Source of the DNA: Cyanobium sp. Morenito 9A2
GTDB taxonomy: Bacteria; Cyanobacteriota; Cyanobacteriia; PCC-6307; Cyanobiaceae
Reading direction: 5' to 3'
Assembly: GCF_024345575.1 (NCBI RefSeq)
Contig: NZ_JAGQBJ010000005.1
Coordinates: 62,001-126,000 of the forward strand
Length of the DNA stretch: 64,000 nucleotides
Shown here: piece after piece, positions 40,693-54,158 of the stretch
How positions within the stretch are numbered: the first letter of the stretch is position 1
How the letters are laid out: each line of letters begins with the position of its first letter
Translations under genes and position numbers: made by a program
The notes under the pieces: generated by a model
Databases searched by the model: none
Told to the model about the DNA's origin: nothing
What the model saw: only the letters and a program-made list of their open reading frames with translations

Positions 40693-41070
40693 TCAGCTCT
40701 CCCGCGCCCTGCGCACCGCCGCCTCCTTCTCCTCCAGCAACGCCTGCAACCACCCCAGCAGAACCTCCCGGCTGGCGGGCAACGGAAAAGGCCCCTCCTC
40801 GTAGCGGGCCTCCACGGCAAACACCTGCAAGTCGAGCAGGTCGGCCGGCAGATCGGAGCCGGCCAGATCGGCCAGTTCTGCGAGGTCATGGCTGCGGGGC
40901 GGGCGCTGATTCGCCAGCACGATCTGGGCCTTGAGCAGTTTTTCCAGAGCCTGCTGGGCCAGGAACCCCCACTCCTCCTCAGGGAACACCCCATCGAGCC
41001 CCAGCTGCAGGGCCACCAGATGGCGCTGAACGATCACCAGGAGTAGGGCCGCATCCTCAGCGGGCGGCAT
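40693..41070 (-). CDS. HEPN-domain toxin of a HEPN/MNT module
   Basis: 125 residues from ATG 41070, mostly helical: RHLVALQLGLDG, WGFLAQQALEKLLKAQIVLAN, then RPPRSHDLAELADL, which contains the R-x4-H motif of HEPN ribonucleases. The upstream extension to 41097 adds nine residues and is not needed. It overlaps the MNT gene by 14 bases. In type VII systems the MNT partner inactivates HEPN by adding AMP to it. Both halves look intact, unlike the other toxin loci in the window. Confidence 0.8.
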   Translation of the reverse strand: MPPAEDAALLLVIVQRHLVALQLGLDGVFPEEEWGFLAQQALEKLLKAQIVLANQRPPRSHDLAELADLAGSDLPADLLDLQVFAVEARYEEGPFPLPASREVLLGWLQALLEEKEAAVRRARES

Positions 41071-41464
41071 AAAGCACCTTCCCTTCCCGCGCCACATCGC
41101 CCATCACGTGCCAACGCGATTGGGCCATCCGCGCCGCATCGCCCCAGCCGGTCACCAGCAGATCAACACCCACCGGCACCGAGCCCAGCAGCGCTCGGTA
41201 GCGGCGCCAACCCGCCAACTTCTGCTGGGGCGTGAGCTGGGCGCTGCGGATGATCACCACTAGATCCAGATCCGAATCACTGCGGGACTCACCGCGGGCT
41301 CTGGAACCAAACCCCACCACGGCCTTCACCTCCGGGTCGGCGATCAACGCCAGTAACCCCAGACGCAGTCGATCCCCATCAATCCCAGGGCCCAGGTCCA
41401 GTCGCTCTGGCAAGGCAGTGGGATGCTCCCAGGGCAGTGTTGGATGGGCTGAGGTCAAGGCCAT
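41057..41464 (-). CDS. Minimal nucleotidyltransferase (MNT) antitoxin
   Basis: 135 residues with the polymerase-beta-like motif VGFGSRARGESRSDSDLDLVV (GS at 53-54, acidic pair in the SDSDLDL block), the defining GSx10DxD pattern. It is upstream of, and overlaps, the HEPN toxin gene on the same strand. Known MNT antitoxins AMPylate or otherwise modify the toxin. The N-terminal 30 residues are poorly conserved and a later start is possible. Confidence 0.85.
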   Translation of the reverse strand: MALTSAHPTLPWEHPTALPERLDLGPGIDGDRLRLGLLALIADPEVKAVVGFGSRARGESRSDSDLDLVVIIRSAQLTPQQKLAGWRRYRALLGSVPVGVDLLVTGWGDAARMAQSRWHVMGDVAREGKVLYAAR

Positions 41465-44761: not shown

Positions 44762-45433
44762 TCAGACTCCGAGCGCTGGGGGGCGTGAGGGGGCATAGCG
44801 GCGGCGCAGGGCAAGGCAGGGGGCCAGGGCCAGCAGAAGACCCGGGGCACAGACCGGTGACGGGGCCTTGAGTGGCCCACCGATGCTCCCGAAGTGGCGC
44901 TGGGTGCTAACGCATGAGATGTCCCCCGCCAGGCTCTTGGGCGTCAGGTTGGCGCCGCCTGTGCCGACGTCTTGGCCGATCGAACTGAACCCCGCTGTGT
45001 CGCTGGAGCCAATGGTGCTCTGATGTGGGCCACGGCATCGGGGCCAGGGGTGGTGCTCGGGAGGTCTGCCGTCAGTGCAATCCTGACGCCGCTGGGAGCA
45101 GCTCCAGTGGTTGGAGCGAAGAAGGTCAGATCGCCGTTGCCACCTGGGTTGTACGGAAGGAAACCGCAGGTGCAGGGGTTTCATCCGGGGTGTTGCTGAA
45201 GGTGAGGGAACCACCGGGGGTGCGGCGTCATCTCAGGGGAAACAACCTGAACAGGTGCCCGATTGGCGCTCGATGGCGTCATGGCATGACCTCCCTGCCA
45301 GGCTCACCCGGGACGTGAGGCAATCGGTGTAGGTCTGGTTCTGAATCGTTCAGGTGATGGCCTTGGACGCGCTTTCGCCAAGCTCCCCAAGGACAGCGAT
45401 TGCGCAGCCAGCCCCCGCAGTGGTCGTGAGAAC
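44762..45433 (-). pseudogene. Degenerate third copy of the PEP-CTERM-like secreted protein
   Basis: Pieces in different frames follow the order of the two intact relatives at 45675 and 47405. They are a signal-like TTTAGAGCAIAVLGELGESA and KAIT at the N-terminus, a TGA (45350-45352) where the relatives have Tyr, then IQNQTYTD, GTCSGCF, GGSLTFSNTPDE, and LTFFAPTTGAAPSGVRIALT. A final tail reads KAPSPVCAPGLLLALAPCLA then LRRRYA. One stop and several frameshifts make it non-coding. The tail anatomy (PxP, hydrophobic stretch, RRRY) is preserved. Confidence 0.6.
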
Positions 45434-45674: not shown

Positions 45675-46343
45675 TCAGGCCGTTGGAACCAGTTCCGGGT
45701 CAGGCTGGGCCGCTGACAACCTGGTCTTCAGCTCCGCATAGCGACGGCGCGCCATCAGCACGGGCAGGAACACAGCAAGGCCAAACCAGGAGATGGGCGC
45801 CGGTGCCTTCGCAAGGGTCGTGGACGCTGTCCACGTACCCCTGACAACTCCTCCAGTGCCACAAACGCCTGCGCCGGTGTAGATGCCATTGTCGCAGTAT
45901 TCAATGCCCGTGATTGCTCTCGATTCTGTGGCTGTGCCTCCCGGAGCTGCCGCGGGAAGCGCGGAAGCGATCGTGAAGCGGATGACATCAGCGCCATTCG
46001 GTGTGTTGTTCAAGATCAAGTACTGGGTACCCCCTGATACTGCGGTGGCGATTGTTCCGCCCTGCAACCCCGTGGCCCAACGGGAGGTCTGATCAAGGCC
46101 CGTCGTGGGAACAGTCGTCAAGCTGATGTCGTAGGCCCCAAAACCAGCAGCGGTCCCGCCCCAGTTGAAGTAGCCGCTGATGGTTCCGGAGGTGCCGTTG
46201 GTGCCTGCCACTCCCGTAAAGCTGTAGGCACCGCCGAGAAAATAGGTGATCGCATTCGCTGGCTGATCAACGCCCACGGTCAGCGCAAGAGCACAGCAGG
46301 CTCCCAAGAGGCTGGGGAGCATCGCTTCTTTGGTGAGCCCCAC
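45675..46343 (-). CDS. Secreted protein with PEP-CTERM-like sorting tail (copy A)
   Basis: 222 residues from GTG 46343. There is a signal peptide at 1-31 (LLGACCALALTVGVDQPANA), then a beta-rich body beginning AITYFLGGAYSFTG with GTISGYFNWGG. The C-terminal signal is APAPISWFGLA (180-190), a hydrophobic stretch VFLPVLM and basic ARRRYAELK (198-206). This is the three-part anatomy of PEP-CTERM substrates (motif, membrane helix, Arg cluster), with SWFG after the PxP motif and a longer post-Arg tail than usual. A cyanoexosortase gene lies at 52.7 kb. The protein is probably processed and released or anchored at the surface; its function is unknown. Confidence 0.75.
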   Translation of the reverse strand: MGLTKEAMLPSLLGACCALALTVGVDQPANAITYFLGGAYSFTGVAGTNGTSGTISGYFNWGGTAAGFGAYDISLTTVPTTGLDQTSRWATGLQGGTIATAVSGGTQYLILNNTPNGADVIRFTIASALPAAAPGGTATESRAITGIEYCDNGIYTGAGVCGTGGVVRGTWTASTTLAKAPAPISWFGLAVFLPVLMARRRYAELKTRLSAAQPDPELVPTA

Positions 46344-47404
46344 GCGCCTGGTTGAAGAGCAAATTCCTAAAAGAGTTTACTTCAAGATGCATGAAGCCGA
46401 CAACCGGCCCCTGGGGCCTTCACCACTTGGCTGGAGCCGGAACCCGTTCGCAGGAGGGCGCCGCGGCAGGCTTTCTTGGGGGTTGACAGGCCCCCGGACG
46501 CCAGGGTGTGAAGGGCTGGGTCAGCGATGGTGCGCATGAGGAGCGGTCCGTCGCTGGTTCGGACCGTTCTGGCCGCTCGCCTTGGCCTCGCCAGCGGCTG
46601 GAAACGTTTGTTGCTGTCAGCGCAGGGAGCTACGTGTTGATCGCTGGCAGGTCTGCCCCAGCAGGTCCTGCCCCCGCCTCCATCGTGACGACGTGATTGG
46701 CTGTCCTCGACAGCGTCCCACGAGGTTCAATCGCAAGCCTTTTGGATGGACCACTGTTGCTGGATGGCCTGGTGCATTGGCGCAGTCGTCGTCAGTACTG
46801 TTGGCCCCATGGGTCAAACATAGATACATCTTGGCGCCGTGATTCACCACTTCTGCCCGGAGCAAGGACACAGCTGAAGTGCGGTCGGGTCAACCACTCC
46901 CATCGACGCAGCCTTCGCACTTGAACAAGCGCTGGCGCCCCGGCAACGACACCATCCATGGCCCAGCGACCGTGTCGGATCTCCCGTCAAATGCTCTGCA
47001 GCTGACGCTCATCGTGTTGACGTTCGAGACAATGGTCTCTGCAGATCCGTAGGCGCCGATCCCACCTCCGGCGGGGCAGCCGCCTCCAGGGAACGCGCCA
47101 GGAGCGGATCCGGGCGATTCCATGACTCAAGCCCTTGAATCGCACGCTTTCTCATCAGCGGCGGCCACTCCCACGTTCGGAAGGGCCCCCTGGGCGAGTT
47201 CAGGGGTGTCACAGGGGCCTTGGTTGCGTACCCCCAGGGCCTTGGCGGCGATCAGGGTGCTGCCACCGAAGCAGTCGCTGAGCGGCGCATCGGGGCCTAG
47301 GGGGGGGGCAGGTCCGTTCCACGGGAGTCCCCACGGCGGCAGGAGGGCGATCGGGCCATCCGTCGACCGCAGCCCACCCGACCAGGAGAGCCCTCCGACA
47401 AGTT
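46344..47404. other. Gene-poor stretch of about 1.06 kb between the two CTERM-like genes
   Basis: No convincing gene. Minus-strand frames contain short protein-like pieces (ETIVSNVNTMSVSCRAFDG near 47000, and GPDAPLSDCFGGSTLIAAKA near 47260) that could be parts of another decayed secreted protein, but they match nothing I can name and sit in different frames. A run of nine G lies near 47300. Confidence 0.35.
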
Positions 47405-48100
47405 CTATCGGGCTGGAGGAGCGGTAGCCGTCAACCCAGGCCGGGGCCGGGGATCCGCCGGATTGGGTAGGAGCGCAACGTAGCGGCGGCGCAGAAAGAG
47501 CATGGGAAGGAGTGCGCCAACGCCTAGCCATGACAGTGGGGCCGGGGCGGCGACGGTGGCCGAGACACCCTGCAAAGCGGTGGCCGAGGCGTTCGGGCAA
47601 TTCAGATTGTTGGACACCTGATTGCTGTTGATGTTGTTGTTGTTGTCTCTGAAATTGGTGCAGAACACACTGTTGGCCGCCGTCGCGCTGATCGGCGTTG
47701 AGCTGGTGTTGGTTGGAGTGGTCGCCAGGGGGCTGGCAAGGGCCAGCCTGAACCCGGGCTCGTTGCCGCCGCCCGCTTCATTCCAAAAGTAGAGCGCGAT
47801 CGGACTGGTTGAGTTCGCTGGCGCATTGCCGCTTGTGGGGTCGTAACCGACGTTGGTGAAGGTGACCGGCGAGGTCAGGCCCAGGGGGTTGGCACCTGTC
47901 ACCCGGAGCGATCCGCCGGACAGGGCCGTTCCATCCCAGTTGAACCAGCCGCTGAAGGTTCCCGCATTGCCGGCTCCGGCATAGCTGTAGGTACCGTTCG
48001 TGATCCAGTAGGTCACGGCCTGCGCCGGCTGCCAGGCTCCCCAGGCAAGACCGGCGGCACAACCGGCGCCGAGCAGGCCCGGCAGCAGAGCTCTGGTCAA
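47405..48100 (-). CDS. Secreted protein with PEP-CTERM-like sorting tail (copy B)
   Basis: 231 residues from TTG 48100, chosen because GGAGG lies five bases upstream and the result (MTRALLPGLLGAGCAAGLAW) aligns with copy A's signal peptide. The body shares AVTYWITNGTYSYAG and GTFSGWFNWDGTALSGGS with copy A. There is an Asn-rich insert (RDNNNNINSNQVSNNLN) at about 151-167. The tail is APAPLSWLGVGALLP with FLRRRYVALLPN (about 185-213). Likely exported by Sec and processed by the exosortase encoded 4.6 kb away. Function unknown. Confidence 0.75.
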   Translation of the reverse strand: MTRALLPGLLGAGCAAGLAWGAWQPAQAVTYWITNGTYSYAGAGNAGTFSGWFNWDGTALSGGSLRVTGANPLGLTSPVTFTNVGYDPTSGNAPANSTSPIALYFWNEAGGGNEPGFRLALASPLATTPTNTSSTPISATAANSVFCTNFRDNNNNINSNQVSNNLNCPNASATALQGVSATVAAPAPLSWLGVGALLPMLFLRRRYVALLPNPADPRPRPGLTATAPPAR

Positions 48101-48664
48101 ACGCCCTCCATGGATGAAATCCAAGCCAAGGCCCAATCTTGGCCATGTTGCAGGCGCTGTCTGCTGAAGACGTCCCGGCTCGTTCTGAGAAAATCCTGAG
48201 AACGCCTTCCCGCCTGAGTGGGCACCCGCTCGGCCTGACGACGACGGGCCCCTGCCGCCATCGTGCTGGGGTGGGGGACCGGCGCCCTGGAGGCTGAGCC
48301 TCAACCGCAGCGTCTGGCGGCCTTGGAGAAGCGCCTGGCCGCGCTGGCCGGCGCGACGGAGGCATCGCCCGAGGATCAGCTGCACCAGCCACCCCCCACC
48401 GAAGCCTGGAACGATGGCTGCCAGAACGGCGCTGGGGTCGATGGCTTTTCTGCTCTGGAGCTGATCGTCGCAACGGATCGGGGAGCCTCTGCGCCGGGCA
48501 GCGGTGGGACTGGCCGCTGGTCTGGATGGTCGCTGCGGCGCTCGCCCAAGGCACCGTGCCCGTGCACAGGGAGCCGGCATTCAAGGCGATTCAGCACCTC
48601 CAGCAGGACTGGGTGGGCTGATCGGACTGGACCAAGTTGAGTCCACCTGACAGTGGGTAACTGG
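48101..48664. other. Intergenic stretch without a supported gene
   Basis: A plus-strand frame at 48263-48640 gives a helical-looking peptide (QRLAALEKRLAALAGATEAS) and then loses protein character; I do not accept it as a gene. The stretch separates copy B (minus strand) from a decayed Phd/PIN locus (plus strand) and may include its promoter. Confidence 0.35.
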
Positions 48665-48930
48665 ATGCGGGTGGTCCATGTGCACGAAGCCAAGACCCAG
48701 TTCTCACGCCTGCTCGACGCCGCCCACGCCGGCGAGACGATCGTGCTCGCCAAGGCGGGCCGGCCCTGGGCCCGGCTCATGCCCCTGGAGGGGCAGGCCG
48801 GCTGGCGCAGGAGTGGAGCCTTGCGGGAGCAGATGCCCCTGCCGCCACCGGAGGTGTTGCTTGAACCCCTGCCGGAGCAGGAGCTGGAGCTGGAGTCCTT
48901 TGAGGGGGGGGGCTGGTTCCCGGTTCATGA
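48665..48930 (+). pseudogene. Phd/YefM-type antitoxin with a poly-G frameshift
   Basis: MRVVHVHEAKTQFSRLLDAA, then GETIVLAKAGRPWARLMPLE, is a textbook Phd/YefM N-terminus. The C-terminal part VLLEPLPEQELELESFEGGG then crosses a nine-G run (48904-48912). In the frame read, no stop occurs until far downstream; a one-base change in the run would place a stop at the TGA overlapping the toxin ATG (48928-48930), the normal arrangement. Either real decay or a homopolymer error. Confidence 0.7.
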
Positions 48931-49322
48931 GCCTGCCGCGACTGCTGCTCGATACGCACGTGCTGTTCTGGTGGCTGTCGGAGCCGGAGCGCCTCAGCCC
49001 GGCGGTGGCGGCAGCCCTGGCCGACCCAGCCTCCGAGGTACTCGTGAGCGCCGCCAGTGCCTGGGAGATTGCCACCAAGTACCGCATCGGCAGGCTTCCC
49101 TCTGCCGCCGTGCTCCTGGAGGATTGGGGGCCCCTGCTCGATGGTCAGGGGTTTCGACACCTGGCCATCCATCCGTGCATGCGATCCGAGCCGGTGGCTA
49201 CGCCCTGGCCCATCGCGACCCCTTTGACCGTCTGCTGGCGGCCCAGGCCGAGCTGGAGCAATTTGACGCTGGTCAGAGTGGATCCGGCACTGGCTGGGTT
49301 CCCGTGCCGGATCCAGTGCTGA
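48927..49322 (+). pseudogene. PIN-domain toxin with two compensating frameshifts
   Basis: The 131-residue frame starts PRLLLDTHVLFWWLSEPERL with DTH-type first Asp, then VLVSAASAWEIATKYRIGRL (conserved Glu in WEI). At about 49173 it leaves frame and regains it at about 49262, ending LTLVRVDPALAGF. The skipped stretch in the neighbouring frame reads HAIRAGGYALAHRDPFDRLL, containing the conserved H-R-D-P-F-D-R with the catalytic Asp. So a missing base and an extra T cancel out, but about 28 residues including the active-site Asp are garbled. Toxin probably inactive. Confidence 0.7.
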
Positions 49323-49328
49323 TCAGCC

Positions 49329-51776
49329 TCAGCCGTCGAGCCAGCGACCGAGACGTTTCTTCCAGTCCGCCCACAGGTGAGGGGCACGTCGGGCGCGCTG
49401 GGGGGGATCGTCGTCGCCATCGGGAGCGGCCTTGTCGTAGTAGCTGTAGGCCGATCCGGCATCGAAGCCGCCATAGCCGCTGTAACTGCGCACGTCGTTG
49501 TAGCCGTAGCCATAGCCGTAGGCGTAGGCGCCGGATTTCTCGCCCTTGGGTCGGCGGGCGTTGGTGACGATCCCCAGCAGCGGCACACCGGCATCGTTGA
49601 TCCGATCCACGGCTTCGGCGGGCAGGGAGCGATCGACGCGGTTGAGGGTGACCAGAAGCACGATGCCCTCCAGGTGCTGGGCCACCAGGGCCGCATCCGC
49701 CAGGCCCAGGGCCGGCGGGGTGTCATAAAGCACCAGATCGAAGACGCCGCTGGTGCCGATGTCATGCACCAACGCACCCATGCGCTCGGAACCCAGCAGC
49801 CGCGGCGGATCGGGGGGCCGGCGGCCGGCGGTGATCACGCTCCACCCCGGGTAATCGGGCACCTCCTGGACCACATCCCGCCAGTCCAGCCCCTCCTCGG
49901 TGAGCAGGTTCGTGAGGCCACGGAGGTTGTCGAGGCCGAGGCGATGGTGGATCTGCGGCTTGCGCAGGTCGGCGTCCACCAGCAGCACCCTCTGGCCCAG
50001 CTCCGAGAGCGTTTTCGCCAGGAGTACGTTCAACAGGCTCTTGCCCTCGGCGGGCACCGAACTGGTGAGCGCCACCGACACCAGGGGCCTGTCCGTGTGG
50101 AGGAAGCGCAGGGAGGTGTAGAGGTTGCGCAGGGCCTCCTGGTAGAAGAAGCGCTGGTAGCCCCCCTGGCCATCGGTCTGCTGGTCGAGCTCCTGGAGCA
50201 GGAAGCGCTTCTCCCGCCGCACACCATCGAAGAAGGCCACGTAGGGCACGTGGCCCAGCAGGGGGACGCCCAGGTCTTCGCGCACCTCCTGGGGACTGTG
50301 GAACACATGGTCGAGCCGGTCGCGCAGCAGCGCCACACCCGCCCCCGCCACCAGCCCGAAGAGGATCCCCTGGAACACCCCCTTGCCCAGGGAGGGCTCC
50401 ACGGGGGTGAGCGCCACGCTGGTGGGGGAGATCACCTTCCAGGGGGTGCTGCGCTGGGCGATCTCCAGCTGGAACTGCTCGCGGGTGCGGAGGTAGTTGG
50501 CCAGGTTGCCGTCGGCGATCTCCAGCTTCTGCTTGAGCGCGTCGAACTCCCGCAGCAGTGCCGGCTGCAGCTTGAACTGAGCATCCAGCTTGGCGATCTG
50601 GGCGCGGGTGATCGCCGTGGCGTTGGCGTTCTGCCGCAGGGCGGCAGTCACGGCGTCGAGCTCCTTGCGGAGCAGTTGCGGGCGCAGCTGGTCACGGGCC
50701 GCCAGCAGGCTGAGCAGCACGGGGGCGCCGGGGCGGTAGCGGGAGCGAGCCTCGGCGATCTCCACCTCGATCCGTTGCAGCTCATCCAACAGCGCCTGGT
50801 TGGGCAGGTTGGCGGCCAGGTTGTTGCCGCTGCCGCCGGCCTCGACTGTCGAGCCACCGCCACTGTCACCAGGGTTGGTGGAGCCGATGCTGAAACGGCG
50901 CGCCGAGAGCTTGCCGCTGGCCACCTCGGTGCGCACCTGCTCCAGCCGTCTGCGCTCACCCCCCTGGGCCAGCAACTGGCCCTGCAGGCGCTCCAGCTGT
51001 TGGCGCAGGGCCAGGGCCTCCTCCGTGGGCTGCACCAGGTTGTTGGCCTTGCGGAACTGCTCCAGCTCCAGTTGCAGGGCATCGCTCTTGGCCTGCAGCA
51101 GGGGCGCCTGGCGATCGAGAAAGCGCAGGCCATCGTTGAGGCGCTCCTGGCGCTGGCTGGTCGCCCAGCCCAGGTAGCTCTTCTCGGCGAGCGTCAGGGC
51201 CTGCTGCACCACCTGCTGGTCGGAGCCCTTTCCGCTCACATTCAGCACCCCAGGCGCCACAAGACCGTTGCGTTGCACCGCGTCCACCGGCACCAGCGAC
51301 ACGTTGATGCGGGGGAGGGCCCTGGGTTTCACCCCCGAGCGGGCCAGCTCCAGGTACACCGGCTCCAGCACCGCCGCGCTCTCCAGCACCTTGATCAGGG
51401 TGGGGACATCAATGTTGAAGGTGTTGCGGGCCAGCGATTCGATCGCGCCGCCGCCGTCGCTGCCGGCGGCGGCGCCACCGCCGCTGGAACTGGGCCGGTC
51501 GTTCACCGGATCGGAGATCAGCAGGGTGAACCCCCCCTGGTACACCGGATCGAAGTAGAGCTTGTACAGGGTCTGCGACACCTGGAACAGAGCCACGACC
51601 ACCACGGTGATCAGGAACGGCCGCCGCCGCCGCCGGATCACCCGGACCAGGGTGGTGAGGTTGAAGCCCTCGCGGCGGCCGTCACCGGAGCCCCGCGGCA
51701 CCCGCCCTGCCTGGTCCTCCGAGCGGACGCCGCCGCTGCCACCGATCACCTGTTCCGGTGGGCTGAGGCGGGTCAT
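49329..51776 (-). CDS. wzc: Wzc-type polysaccharide co-polymerase / tyrosine autokinase
   Basis: 815 residues from ATG 51776. A cytosolic N-terminus is followed by a membrane helix (PFLITVVVVALFQVSQTLYKLY), a Wzz-like periplasmic domain with long coiled coil (about 250-480), a second membrane segment (GVFQGILFGLVAGAGVALL), and a BY-kinase domain with Walker A SSVPAEGKSLLNVLLA, Walker A' VLLVDADLRKP and Walker B FDLVLYDTPPALGLADA. The C-terminal tail has ten Tyr within about 34 residues (GYGYGYND...YSYYDK), the autophosphorylation cluster. It controls chain length/export with Wza (7130). Convergent with the toxin relic, six bases away. Confidence 0.93.
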   Translation of the reverse strand: MTRLSPPEQVIGGSGGVRSEDQAGRVPRGSGDGRREGFNLTTLVRVIRRRRRPFLITVVVVALFQVSQTLYKLYFDPVYQGGFTLLISDPVNDRPSSSGGGAAAGSDGGGAIESLARNTFNIDVPTLIKVLESAAVLEPVYLELARSGVKPRALPRINVSLVPVDAVQRNGLVAPGVLNVSGKGSDQQVVQQALTLAEKSYLGWATSQRQERLNDGLRFLDRQAPLLQAKSDALQLELEQFRKANNLVQPTEEALALRQQLERLQGQLLAQGGERRRLEQVRTEVASGKLSARRFSIGSTNPGDSGGGSTVEAGGSGNNLAANLPNQALLDELQRIEVEIAEARSRYRPGAPVLLSLLAARDQLRPQLLRKELDAVTAALRQNANATAITRAQIAKLDAQFKLQPALLREFDALKQKLEIADGNLANYLRTREQFQLEIAQRSTPWKVISPTSVALTPVEPSLGKGVFQGILFGLVAGAGVALLRDRLDHVFHSPQEVREDLGVPLLGHVPYVAFFDGVRREKRFLLQELDQQTDGQGGYQRFFYQEALRNLYTSLRFLHTDRPLVSVALTSSVPAEGKSLLNVLLAKTLSELGQRVLLVDADLRKPQIHHRLGLDNLRGLTNLLTEEGLDWRDVVQEVPDYPGWSVITAGRRPPDPPRLLGSERMGALVHDIGTSGVFDLVLYDTPPALGLADAALVAQHLEGIVLLVTLNRVDRSLPAEAVDRINDAGVPLLGIVTNARRPKGEKSGAYAYGYGYGYNDVRSYSGYGGFDAGSAYSYYDKAAPDGDDDPPQRARRAPHLWADWKKRLGRWLDG

Positions 51777-51918
51777 GGTGCTCGCGAGCTGTGCGGATCG
51801 TACGAGGGGGTTGCAAGGGCCGTAGCGGACCTGGGACGGGCACGGGTACCCAGGGGCCAGGGAGGTTCCCCGGGGCAGAACACCTTGCCAACCTGTGGGT
51901 GGGCCATAGGCTCCGCCC

Positions 51919-52719
51919 ATGACCGATCCGACCACGGACCAGGCCTTCAGCACCGGTCGCGCCCGCAGCTTTGCCCGCCTCACGGCCTACACCCTGCTGG
52001 GTTTGTTCGCCGTCAGTGTGATCCCGGCGTTGCTGCCCTTCGCCTTCAATCAGCCCGAGCGCCTGTTCGGCAGCCTGCGCGAGCTGCTGGAACGCTCCAC
52101 GCTGCCGCTGGTGGCCTTGATCCTGCTGTTCGCCGGCTTCGGCGGCGGCGCCCTGCCCGCCGCCTGGGAGGTGTGGCTGGCCACCGTGCTGGGGCCGCTG
52201 CTGAGGCTGGTGGCACTGCTCTACCTGCTCACGGCCGTCTCGATCGTGGCTGTCGCCGGTGAGATCCAGAGCCAGGGGCTGGCCCAACTCAAGGGTCAGC
52301 TGCAAAGCACCCTCTCGGGCCTCGGGGCCTTCCGCCAGCAGCTGCGGGTCGCCCCCGATGCTCCCTCGCTGCGGCGACTGCTCGACCAGCAGCCCGTCCT
52401 GCGACCCAGCCTGAGCAACCCCAGTTCCCCCCTGGCCAGCCCGTCGGCCAGCCTGAAGGACCAGCGGGCCGCCGCGACCCAGTTGCTCGATCGGGTCGAG
52501 GCGAACCTGCGCTCCGAGGATCTGCGCCGCCGCAGTGACGCCGCCGGCAACCTGCTCAAGGAAAACCTGCGCCTGGCGGCCACCGCCACCGTCTACGCCG
52601 GGTTCTACCTGCTGGCAAGCCTGTTCTGGCCGGCGCGGCTGGGCCCCTGGGTCGAGCGCGGCCGCCGTTTGCGGGCCGAGCGTTCCCGGGCCGAAGCCGA
52701 GACCCATGAAGCCGGCTGA
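51919..52719 (+). CDS. HpsJ-like membrane protein, exosortase-linked
   Basis: 266 residues. Two to three N-terminal membrane segments (AYTLLGLFAVSVIPALLPFA, LVALILLFAGFGGGALP, LLRLVALLYLLTAVSIVAVA) are followed by a helical soluble part (GLAQLKGQLQSTLSGLGAF) and a last membrane segment (AATATVYAGFYLLASLFWPA). This organisation and its position just before a cyanoexosortase match the HpsJ family seen in cyanobacterial polysaccharide/exosortase loci. Divergent from wzc with 142 bases between. Overlaps the exosortase start by 14 bases. Confidence 0.6.
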   Translation: MTDPTTDQAFSTGRARSFARLTAYTLLGLFAVSVIPALLPFAFNQPERLFGSLRELLERSTLPLVALILLFAGFGGGALPAAWEVWLATVLGPLLRLVALLYLLTAVSIVAVAGEIQSQGLAQLKGQLQSTLSGLGAFRQQLRVAPDAPSLRRLLDQQPVLRPSLSNPSSPLASPSASLKDQRAAATQLLDRVEANLRSEDLRRRSDAAGNLLKENLRLAATATVYAGFYLLASLFWPARLGPWVERGRRLRAERSRAEAETHEAG

Positions 52720-53560
52720 TCTGCCCCTGGCGTTGCTGGCCGGCCTGGCCGCCAGCCAGCTCACCTTGATGACCCGCAGCGGGCCCGGCGCCGGCGACTA
52801 CGCGATCATGGCCGCCCTGGTCTGGCTGGGGGGCGCCGTGCTGCTGCACGACGACCGCCAGCAGCGGGGTTTTCCCCCCGCCCCCTGGCCCCTGCTGCTG
52901 CCGGGGCTGCTGCTGCTGCTTTGGTGCCTGCTGGTGCTCAGCTTCGCCCTGCGTCTCTACGACCCGCTCGTGCACCTACTCCCCCTGGCGGCATTGCTGG
53001 GCCTGGCACTGGTGTCGAACGCCAGCCCCCGGCGGCGCCTGTTTCGCCAACTGCTGCTGCTGGGGTTGCTTCCGCCGGCGATGCTGCTGTTCCAGGCGTT
53101 GCTGCCCCCCGAAGGCCCGGCGCGGCTCACAGCCACGTTTTCCGCTTTCCTGCTCTGGCTCGCCGGTCAACCGGCCCTGGCCGAGGGGATCGTGGTGCTG
53201 CTGCCCGGCCGCAGCCTCGAGATCGGCCAGGGCTGTCTCGGGCTCAACACGATCAGCCTCTGCCTGGGGGCGGTGGTGGTCTTCGCCCTGCTGCTGCCCG
53301 CCCATCGCCATCGAACCCTGTTGGCCCTGGCTGCCGCCGCCGTGCTCGTGGCCTTCGTGGTCAACGGCTTGCGGGTGGCGCTGCTGGGGTTCACCGATCC
53401 AGAGCCCGCCCCGGGCTGGTGGAACGAGCTGCACGGCTTCGACTTCTGGCACATCGGTCTGGGCTCCAGCCTGTTCTCACTGCTGGCCATGGGCGGCACC
53501 ACCGTTCTGGTGGTCGCCTCCCTGGAGTGGGAGCTGCGCCGGAGGCGCTCCGGAGGCTGA
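52706..53560 (+). CDS. Cyanoexosortase (PEP-CTERM-type protease/transpeptidase)
   Basis: 284 residues, about eight membrane segments. The exosortase triad is present: Cys177 in LEIGQGCLGLNTI, Arg223 in VVNGLRVALLG and His249 in FDFWHIGLGSSLFSLL. Exosortases recognise C-terminal PEP-CTERM-like signals on secreted proteins and cleave there. I chose ATG 52706, overlapping the HpsJ-like gene; an accessory gene follows. Likely substrates in this window are the tail-bearing proteins at 45675 and 47405. Confidence 0.88.
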   Translation: MKPADLPLALLAGLAASQLTLMTRSGPGAGDYAIMAALVWLGGAVLLHDDRQQRGFPPAPWPLLLPGLLLLLWCLLVLSFALRLYDPLVHLLPLAALLGLALVSNASPRRRLFRQLLLLGLLPPAMLLFQALLPPEGPARLTATFSAFLLWLAGQPALAEGIVVLLPGRSLEIGQGCLGLNTISLCLGAVVVFALLLPAHRHRTLLALAAAAVLVAFVVNGLRVALLGFTDPEPAPGWWNELHGFDFWHIGLGSSLFSLLAMGGTTVLVVASLEWELRRRRSGG

Positions 53561-53561
53561 G

Positions 53562-54158
53562 ATGGGGTCCGTCGGCCCTGCTCCCGCCCCGCCCGACGGC
53601 CGGCCCACGGACCTGCGCCTGCTGGTCCTGGTGTTGTTCACGGGCTGGGCCGCGCTGCTCAGCGTCGAGAGCTGGTTCCGCCCCCCCGGGGTCGAGCGAC
53701 CGGTTCCTTTCCCCACCACCGTGCTCCGGCCTGAGGGCACTTACCACCGGGTGCCGCAGGTGGCCGATCACCAACCGCTCCCTCCCCAGGTCGTGGTACT
53801 CCAGGCCGCCGATTACCGCGGACCGGACGGCCAACGGCTGGCCCTGCGCTGGATCACCCACACCTCCTCCTCCCGCGGCGGCATCAACTTCGACTTCCCC
53901 TCCATCGCCACGGCCGTGCTCGGTCCGGGGACCAGGGGCCACTGCCAGCGCATCAGCGCCGCCGGGCCGGAGGCCACCCTGTTGGGCAGCGAAACGGAGT
54001 TGCGCGCCGCCCTGGCCGCGTCGGCGCCCCAGGGCTTCGAGCGGCTGCTCTGGCTGGCGGGCCTGCGGCCCTACCAGGCCAATGCCTGCCTCTGGACCGG
54101 CACGGTGGCGCGGCCCTCCCCTTCGGCCCCACGGCGGGCTCCATCACGTTTCGAGTGA
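53562..54158 (+). CDS. Cyanoexosortase-associated (EpsI-like) protein
   Basis: 198 residues. An N-terminal membrane anchor (LRLLVLVLFTGWAALLSVES) is followed by a periplasmic domain with VVLQAADYRGPDGQRLALRW and SSSRGGINFDFPSIATAVLG. The order and W/R-rich strands match the accessory proteins encoded beside cyanoexosortases (EpsI-like). Starts one base after the exosortase stop. No further gene follows for almost 1 kb. Confidence 0.75.
   Translation: MGSVGPAPAPPDGRPTDLRLLVLVLFTGWAALLSVESWFRPPGVERPVPFPTTVLRPEGTYHRVPQVADHQPLPPQVVVLQAADYRGPDGQRLALRWITHTSSSRGGINFDFPSIATAVLGPGTRGHCQRISAAGPEATLLGSETELRAALAASAPQGFERLLWLAGLRPYQANACLWTGTVARPSPSAPRRAPSRFE

Follow-up and report, generated by a model that had tools for sequence, protein, structure and literature searches.

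A probable variant exosortase/sorting-signal pair beside polysaccharide genes in Cyanobium sp. Morenito 9A2

Paralogous proteins with C-terminal tails and their degenerate relatives

The window analysed here, a 64,000-nucleotide stretch of Cyanobium sp. Morenito 9A2 (contig NZ_JAGQBJ010000005.1), encodes two secreted-type proteins on the minus strand. P1 (222 aa, 45675-46343) is an open reading frame that ends in a candidate sorting tail, APAPISWFGLAVFLPVLMARRRY followed by 20 aa (45678-45806, minus strand). P2 (231 aa, 47405-48100) lies within a longer open reading frame (47405-48580) and ends in APAPLSWLGVGALLPMLFLRRRY followed by 24 aa (47408-47548, minus strand). Inspection of the start context found GGAGG immediately 5' of a TTG, which is likely the start codon of P2. 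P1 begins with a signal-like segment ending in QPANA, found with a simple hydrophobicity rule and by eye, and P2 with one ending in QPAQA, judged by eye; the rule flags P1 and misses P2. Both tails have the PEP-CTERM-like architecture of a motif, a hydrophobic helix and a basic cluster close to the C-terminus, laid out as APAP-(I/L)SW(F/L)G, hydrophobic stretch and RRRY ahead of the final 20 or 24 residues.

P1 and P2 are paralogues (37% identity, E 1.8e-16), and a common tail is therefore expected from descent and does not count as independent evidence. Full-length searches with both proteins in 78 other genomes added one homologue, from a member of the same genus (G001), whose tail is APAPTSWLGLIVLAPLFALRRRY followed by 14 residues. 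As the three proteins form a single homologous family, the SW-x-G common to them may be mere inheritance. The bodies of P1 and P2 had no match among solved structures at E<=1 and nothing convincing in Pfam or NCBIfam (best E 0.26 and 0.013, respectively). In the low-confidence predicted structure of P2 (mean pLDDT 45.7), a helix at residues 189-210 is consistent with a tail helix and proves nothing. P1 and P2 are the only two intact targets of this class found in the source genome (3.1 Mb, 26 contigs); loci related to that of the window occur in Synechococcus and Cyanobium strains and in two metagenome-assembled relatives.

A broken frame at 44765-45415 (minus strand) has the look of a decayed relative of P2, a relationship weakly suggested by its tail and by three stretches collinear with P2 (about 45415-45221, 45129-45052 and 44950-44780), none of them strong singly. 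The tail of this relic, APSPVCAPGLLLALAPCLALRRRY followed by 10 aa (44765-44866, minus strand), falls outside the interval 45675-48100. It was scored at E 3.0e-4 by tail model A2 and at 2.3 bits by a leave-genus-out tail model, below its own shuffles (max 6.8). The initial annotation had described AP(A/S)P and RRRY(A/V) as common to both intact proteins and the relic, and all three indeed carry them (APSP and RRRY in the relic). It had also described SW(F/L)G as usual after the first motif and 20-25 residues as following the Arg cluster; each of these holds for P1 and P2 and fails for the relic, which has no SW-x-G and 10 residues beyond the cluster. The stretch separating P1 from P2 (46400-47400) was also examined for a degenerate copy, but none was supported, the best match listed there reaching 20.8 bits against shuffles with a mean of 19.4 and a maximum of 24.6.

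The exosortase and its conserved cassette

An exosortase of 284 aa, counted from MKPADLP, is encoded at 52706-53560 (plus strand), 4.6-6.4 kb from P1 and P2. It exceeds the family cut-offs of PF09721 (82.2 bits, cut-off 25.7) and TIGR04178 (47.8 bits, cut-off 23), and has C-x-G, N-x-x-R and H-x-x-x-G as CLG, NGLR and HIGLG, with a putative Cys, Arg, His triad. These motifs are termed invariant in exosortases in the available text of Haft et al. 2006 (PMC1569441), and all three occur in 58 of the 59 exosortases compared, the exception without H-x-x-x-G being interrupted by a stop. A TAG stop lies inside the exosortase frame of G142. The window enzyme stays below every named NCBIfam subtype cut-off, the nearest being CrtA (TIGR03763) at 101.6 of 150 bits. 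Four further members of its clade (clade 1) score 60.6-81.2 bits with the same model, and three enzymes tested from a second clade (clade 2) score 105.3-126.7 bits, likewise below 150.

A clade-1 profile (A3), run on 350 genomes of the family with a match limit of E<=1e-8, separated 16 genomes at 215-442 bits from another 45 with best scores of 51-111 bits and 289 without a match; a clade-2 exosortase is also present in four of the 16. Across 194 class-wide genomes, family members included, only the window's own enzyme scored above 109.2 bits. In a tree of 59 exosortases, the 14 clade-1 rows, which were labelled and picked by A3 score, form one side of a 100/100 branch.

The exosortase is flanked on the plus strand by an HpsJ-like partner (51919-52719), which overlaps the exosortase start and scores 70.5 bits of 140 with NF050013 and 58.5 of 60 with NF038305, and by a downstream partner (53562-54158), which is conserved in the cassette and has no match in NCBIfam or Pfam. 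Adjoining the cassette and divergent from it is a Wzc-like polysaccharide chain-length/tyrosine autokinase gene (49329-51983, minus strand), and further polysaccharide genes near the locus are HpsP-, WcaF- and WcaI-like. All 13 clade-1 neighbourhoods read contain the exosortase, the downstream partner and the Wzc-like gene, and 12 contain the HpsJ-like partner, the 13th ending at a contig edge. Identical tblastn searches of nine clade-2 neighbourhoods found neither the HpsJ-like nor the downstream partner in any, and the Wzc-like gene in seven. Clade-2 loci have a different downstream protein; its end looks similar by eye, so that the partners of the two kinds of locus may be distant relatives.

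Two small gene pairs were also observed in the window. Between P2 and the Wzc-like gene (48653-49322) lies a gene for a Phd-type antitoxin (27.3 bits of 20.8), followed by one without an NCBIfam match at 1e-5, which by eye we take to be a likely PIN-domain toxin. The other pair (40693-41464, minus strand) includes a gene resembling MntA nucleotidyltransferase antitoxins (41057-41464, 35.7 bits, cut-off 60) and a partner without an NCBIfam match at 1e-5.

Co-occurrence of tails and exosortase clade

Clade-1 exosortase neighbourhoods supplied further tails of like build, also from other protein families, while the same screen of nine clade-2 neighbourhoods gave none but one unlike frame, despite a standard tail being present there (L054). 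A tail model (A4) was built from 11 seeds, namely P1, P2 and the G001 protein, which were known beforehand, seven tails obtained by screening for PxP together with hydrophobicity and basic residues, and one from model A2. It was run on the 350 family genomes together with a standard-tail model (A5); at most 22 tail candidates were scored per genome, so that the counts are lower bounds.

Among the candidates scored, A4 at E<=1e-6 matched at least 11 of the 16 clade-1 genomes and none of the 334 others, which answers the question posed in the initial annotation, whether matches of a tail model follow the exosortase clade. When the eight seed genomes were left out, the count was at least 3/8 against 0/334 (Fisher p 8.5e-6, a value that is too small since the genomes are related), and at 1e-4 it was at least 4/8 against at least 1/334. 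At 1e-3, four of the 16 clade-1 genomes had no tail match among the candidates scored and at least five of the 334 genomes outside the clade had one. For standard tails, A5 at E<=1e-3 matched at least 48 of 49 clade-2 genomes, at least 2 of the 12 that have clade 1 alone and at least 5 of the 289 that have neither; among the candidates scored, neither the window genome nor G001 had a match. Two genomes (G137 and G259) hold both exosortase clades plus both tail classes. Based on these comparisons, a distinct subclass of predicted tails, marked by PxP, a helix proline and RRRY, tracks this exosortase clade. As a separate observation, G211, a genome 97% complete with no exosortase at E 1e-8, encodes a relative of P1 and P2 (32%) with an RRRY tail (L148).

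Alternatively, the tails could serve purely as membrane anchors at the C-terminus, passed down with a protein family and cut by no enzyme. This would suit a set in which P1, P2 and the G001 protein are one family with two intact copies only in the window genome, and in which P1 is missed by the leave-genus-out model, where it scores 1.4 bits, below its shuffles (max 7.7), and 6.4 bits with the standard model. P2 and the G001 protein pass the leave-genus-out model at 17.1 and 19.4 bits. Going by these scores, the tails in the window form an outlying sub-variant, in which P1 is placed by its homology to P2; by eye, the helix proline stands four residues from RRR in this genus and mostly 7-8 elsewhere. 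Against plain anchors, the class is carried by other protein families in clade-1 genomes and, among the candidates scored, is absent at E<=1e-6 from the 334 other family genomes, and we regard this explanation as unlikely. A link between the window genome and the class that does not depend on P1 or P2 comes from a gene unrelated to them and broken by a frameshift (G000:C1, about 503400-503900, L127), which carries a typical class tail. It ends in APVSGPLSALSLLPLAGVAAYRRRF, scores 27.5 bits in the leave-genus-out model and is 70.6% identical across 102 residues to a protein adjoining the exosortase of G137.

Features that define the tail class

The class was described from 18 tails, the 11 A4 seeds and seven found with A4, drawn from matches read individually and including the G211 tail, whose genome has no exosortase match at E<=1e-8. 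Left aside were the relic, the frame-broken C1 gene, a more standard-like VPAPLPLLAPG tail (G113), standard tails from G142, G279, G349, G006, G033, G104, G169 and G333, and chance frames in G136 and G106. For comparison, 40 standard tails were fetched, of which 38 were distinct and counted.

Proline within the hydrophobic segment occurs in 18 of 18 class tails and 2 of 38 standard tails. The former count is partly circular, since every one of the 11 A4 seeds carries this proline and the other seven tails were retrieved with A4; the two standard tails in question start APVPGPLP, a register shift. Tyrosine follows the Arg cluster in 15 of 18 class tails, 11 of them with exact RRRY, and in none of the 38 standard tails. 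Among the tails compared, these two features are the ones that separate the class.

The initial annotation had instead proposed SW-x-G and the extended end as marks of a subclass recognised by this exosortase. The link between a subclass and the clade stood, and these two marks of it did not. SW-x-G is found in P1, P2 and the G001 protein, which would fit recognition by this motif, but its three carriers are homologous proteins of one genus and the other 15 class tails have none. The ends measure 4-25 residues, reach 20 or more in three of 18 and comprise 14 in the G001 protein itself. In addition, standard-class tails with PWLG and ends of 22-27 residues occur at L105, L109 and L132 (G142, G006 and G112), genomes in which only the clade-2 exosortase was found, so that W-x-G with a long end accompanies the other enzyme too. 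These counts rule out both features as class markers, and that this exosortase would recognise them is improbable. More probably, SW-x-G is a local variant passed down within a single protein family, and the long end is an extension that is tolerated.

Existing sorting-signal models

That existing PEP-CTERM models would miss these tails was borne out: at E<=10, neither NCBIfam nor Pfam gave a PEP-CTERM match to the P1 or P2 tail, and TIGR02595, run across the window genome at the same limit, had no match at either tail. The near-invariant Pro-Glu-Pro is absent, with PAP in both window tails and PSP in the relic. The G001 tail reached 16.2 bits with TIGR02595 (cut-off 16) alone and 15.1 in its own genome. 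The eight standard tails of the family that turned up in both the A5 and the TIGR02595 searches fared barely better, at 12.5-16.9 bits with two above the cut-off, and being missed is thus not peculiar to the window tails; as TIGR02595 at E<=10 gave matches in 12 of 14 control genomes, its weak matches carry little meaning.

For PFE-CTERM (NF050011, cut-off 24), there was no match to the window tails, and two related tails scored 13.8 bits; Synergist-CTERM matches were likewise below the cut-off. Processing by a different C-terminal sorting protease, either a rhombosortase (GlyGly-CTERM) or a myxosortase-like enzyme (MYXO-CTERM), is highly improbable: the isolated window tails weakly resemble GlyGly-CTERM (TIGR03501; 13.9 and 13.5 bits) and MYXO-CTERM (13.9 and 6.9 bits), and the G001 tail alone exceeds the former cut-off (15.9 of 15.5), but both window tails stay below the cut-offs of 15.5 and 20, and the best rhombosortase match in the genome has 25 bits of 84 in a search that gives matches in 14 of 14 control genomes.

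Discussion

A sequence class of tails co-occurs with one exosortase clade, and that exosortase lies in a conserved cassette. We consider it probable (about 0.7), on sequence grounds, that the window tails and exosortase form a variant exosortase/sorting-signal pair of the exosortase/PEP-CTERM kind. Its signal would consist of PxP in place of PEP, often with Ser two residues on, a hydrophobic segment containing proline, and then RRRY. For P1 and P2, export, topology, cleavage and acceptor are drawn by analogy with known exosortases, from which the likeliest course is that both would be exported and retained in the inner membrane by the helix, with the Arg cluster inside. Cleavage by the exosortase would follow close to PxP, on the outer side of this membrane, and the cleaved proteins would be handed on, possibly to the polysaccharide encoded around the locus.

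As described in the available text of Haft et al. 2006 (PMC1569441), the targets of the PEP-CTERM/EpsH system have signal peptides and the exosortase lies within polysaccharide loci. The pair proposed here resembles this system (TIGR02595) in its polysaccharide locus and in tails that combine a motif, a hydrophobic helix and a basic cluster close to the C-terminus, on targets with candidate signal peptides (flagged by rule in P1 only, judged by eye in both), and differs by PAP in the window tails and PSP in the relic in place of near-invariant PEP and, across the class, by the proline inside the helix and RRRY. The closest named subtype is Cyanoexosortase A (CrtA, TIGR03763) with its similar adjoining HpsJ-like partner (NF050013), although the window enzyme and partner reach only 101.6 of 150 and 70.5 of 140 bits. 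Standard tails of the Cyanobiaceae, VPGPLPxLG..GFSRKLRRRI (clade 2), come from the same bacterial family and share PxP, the hydrophobic stretch and the Arg cluster; unlike the class tails, they usually have Pro where the class often has Ser, their helix is proline-free and Tyr follows the cluster in 0/38. In Nostoc punctiforme, according to the available text of the report (PMC12188702), deletion of Cyanoexosortase B showed that it is needed for motility, biofilm and scytonemin and altered the exported PEP-CTERM proteins, and 35 targets are predicted for it. This is a different subtype, to which the window enzyme scores 16.4 bits of 300, and two intact targets were found in the window genome.

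In the part of the literature covered, titles and abstract openings name no such tail class, and no pairing of an exosortase with Cyanobium was found. With less confidence than for the pair itself, we lean towards the view that the Cyanobiaceae hold a separate, unnamed exosortase type that would read a proline-kinked helix and RRRY, alongside and blind to VPGPLP tails. To our knowledge, it is not settled which features of a target an exosortase recognises. As both tail classes lie near or below the model cut-offs, our results suggest that annotation models undercount exported proteins in these small cyanobacteria. If the proposed pairing is true, separable tail classes for two exosortase clades would let specificity be mapped to the proline, RRRY and PxP, and the single genomes that hold both clades and both tail classes (G137 and G259) would be a natural test of exosortase specificity.
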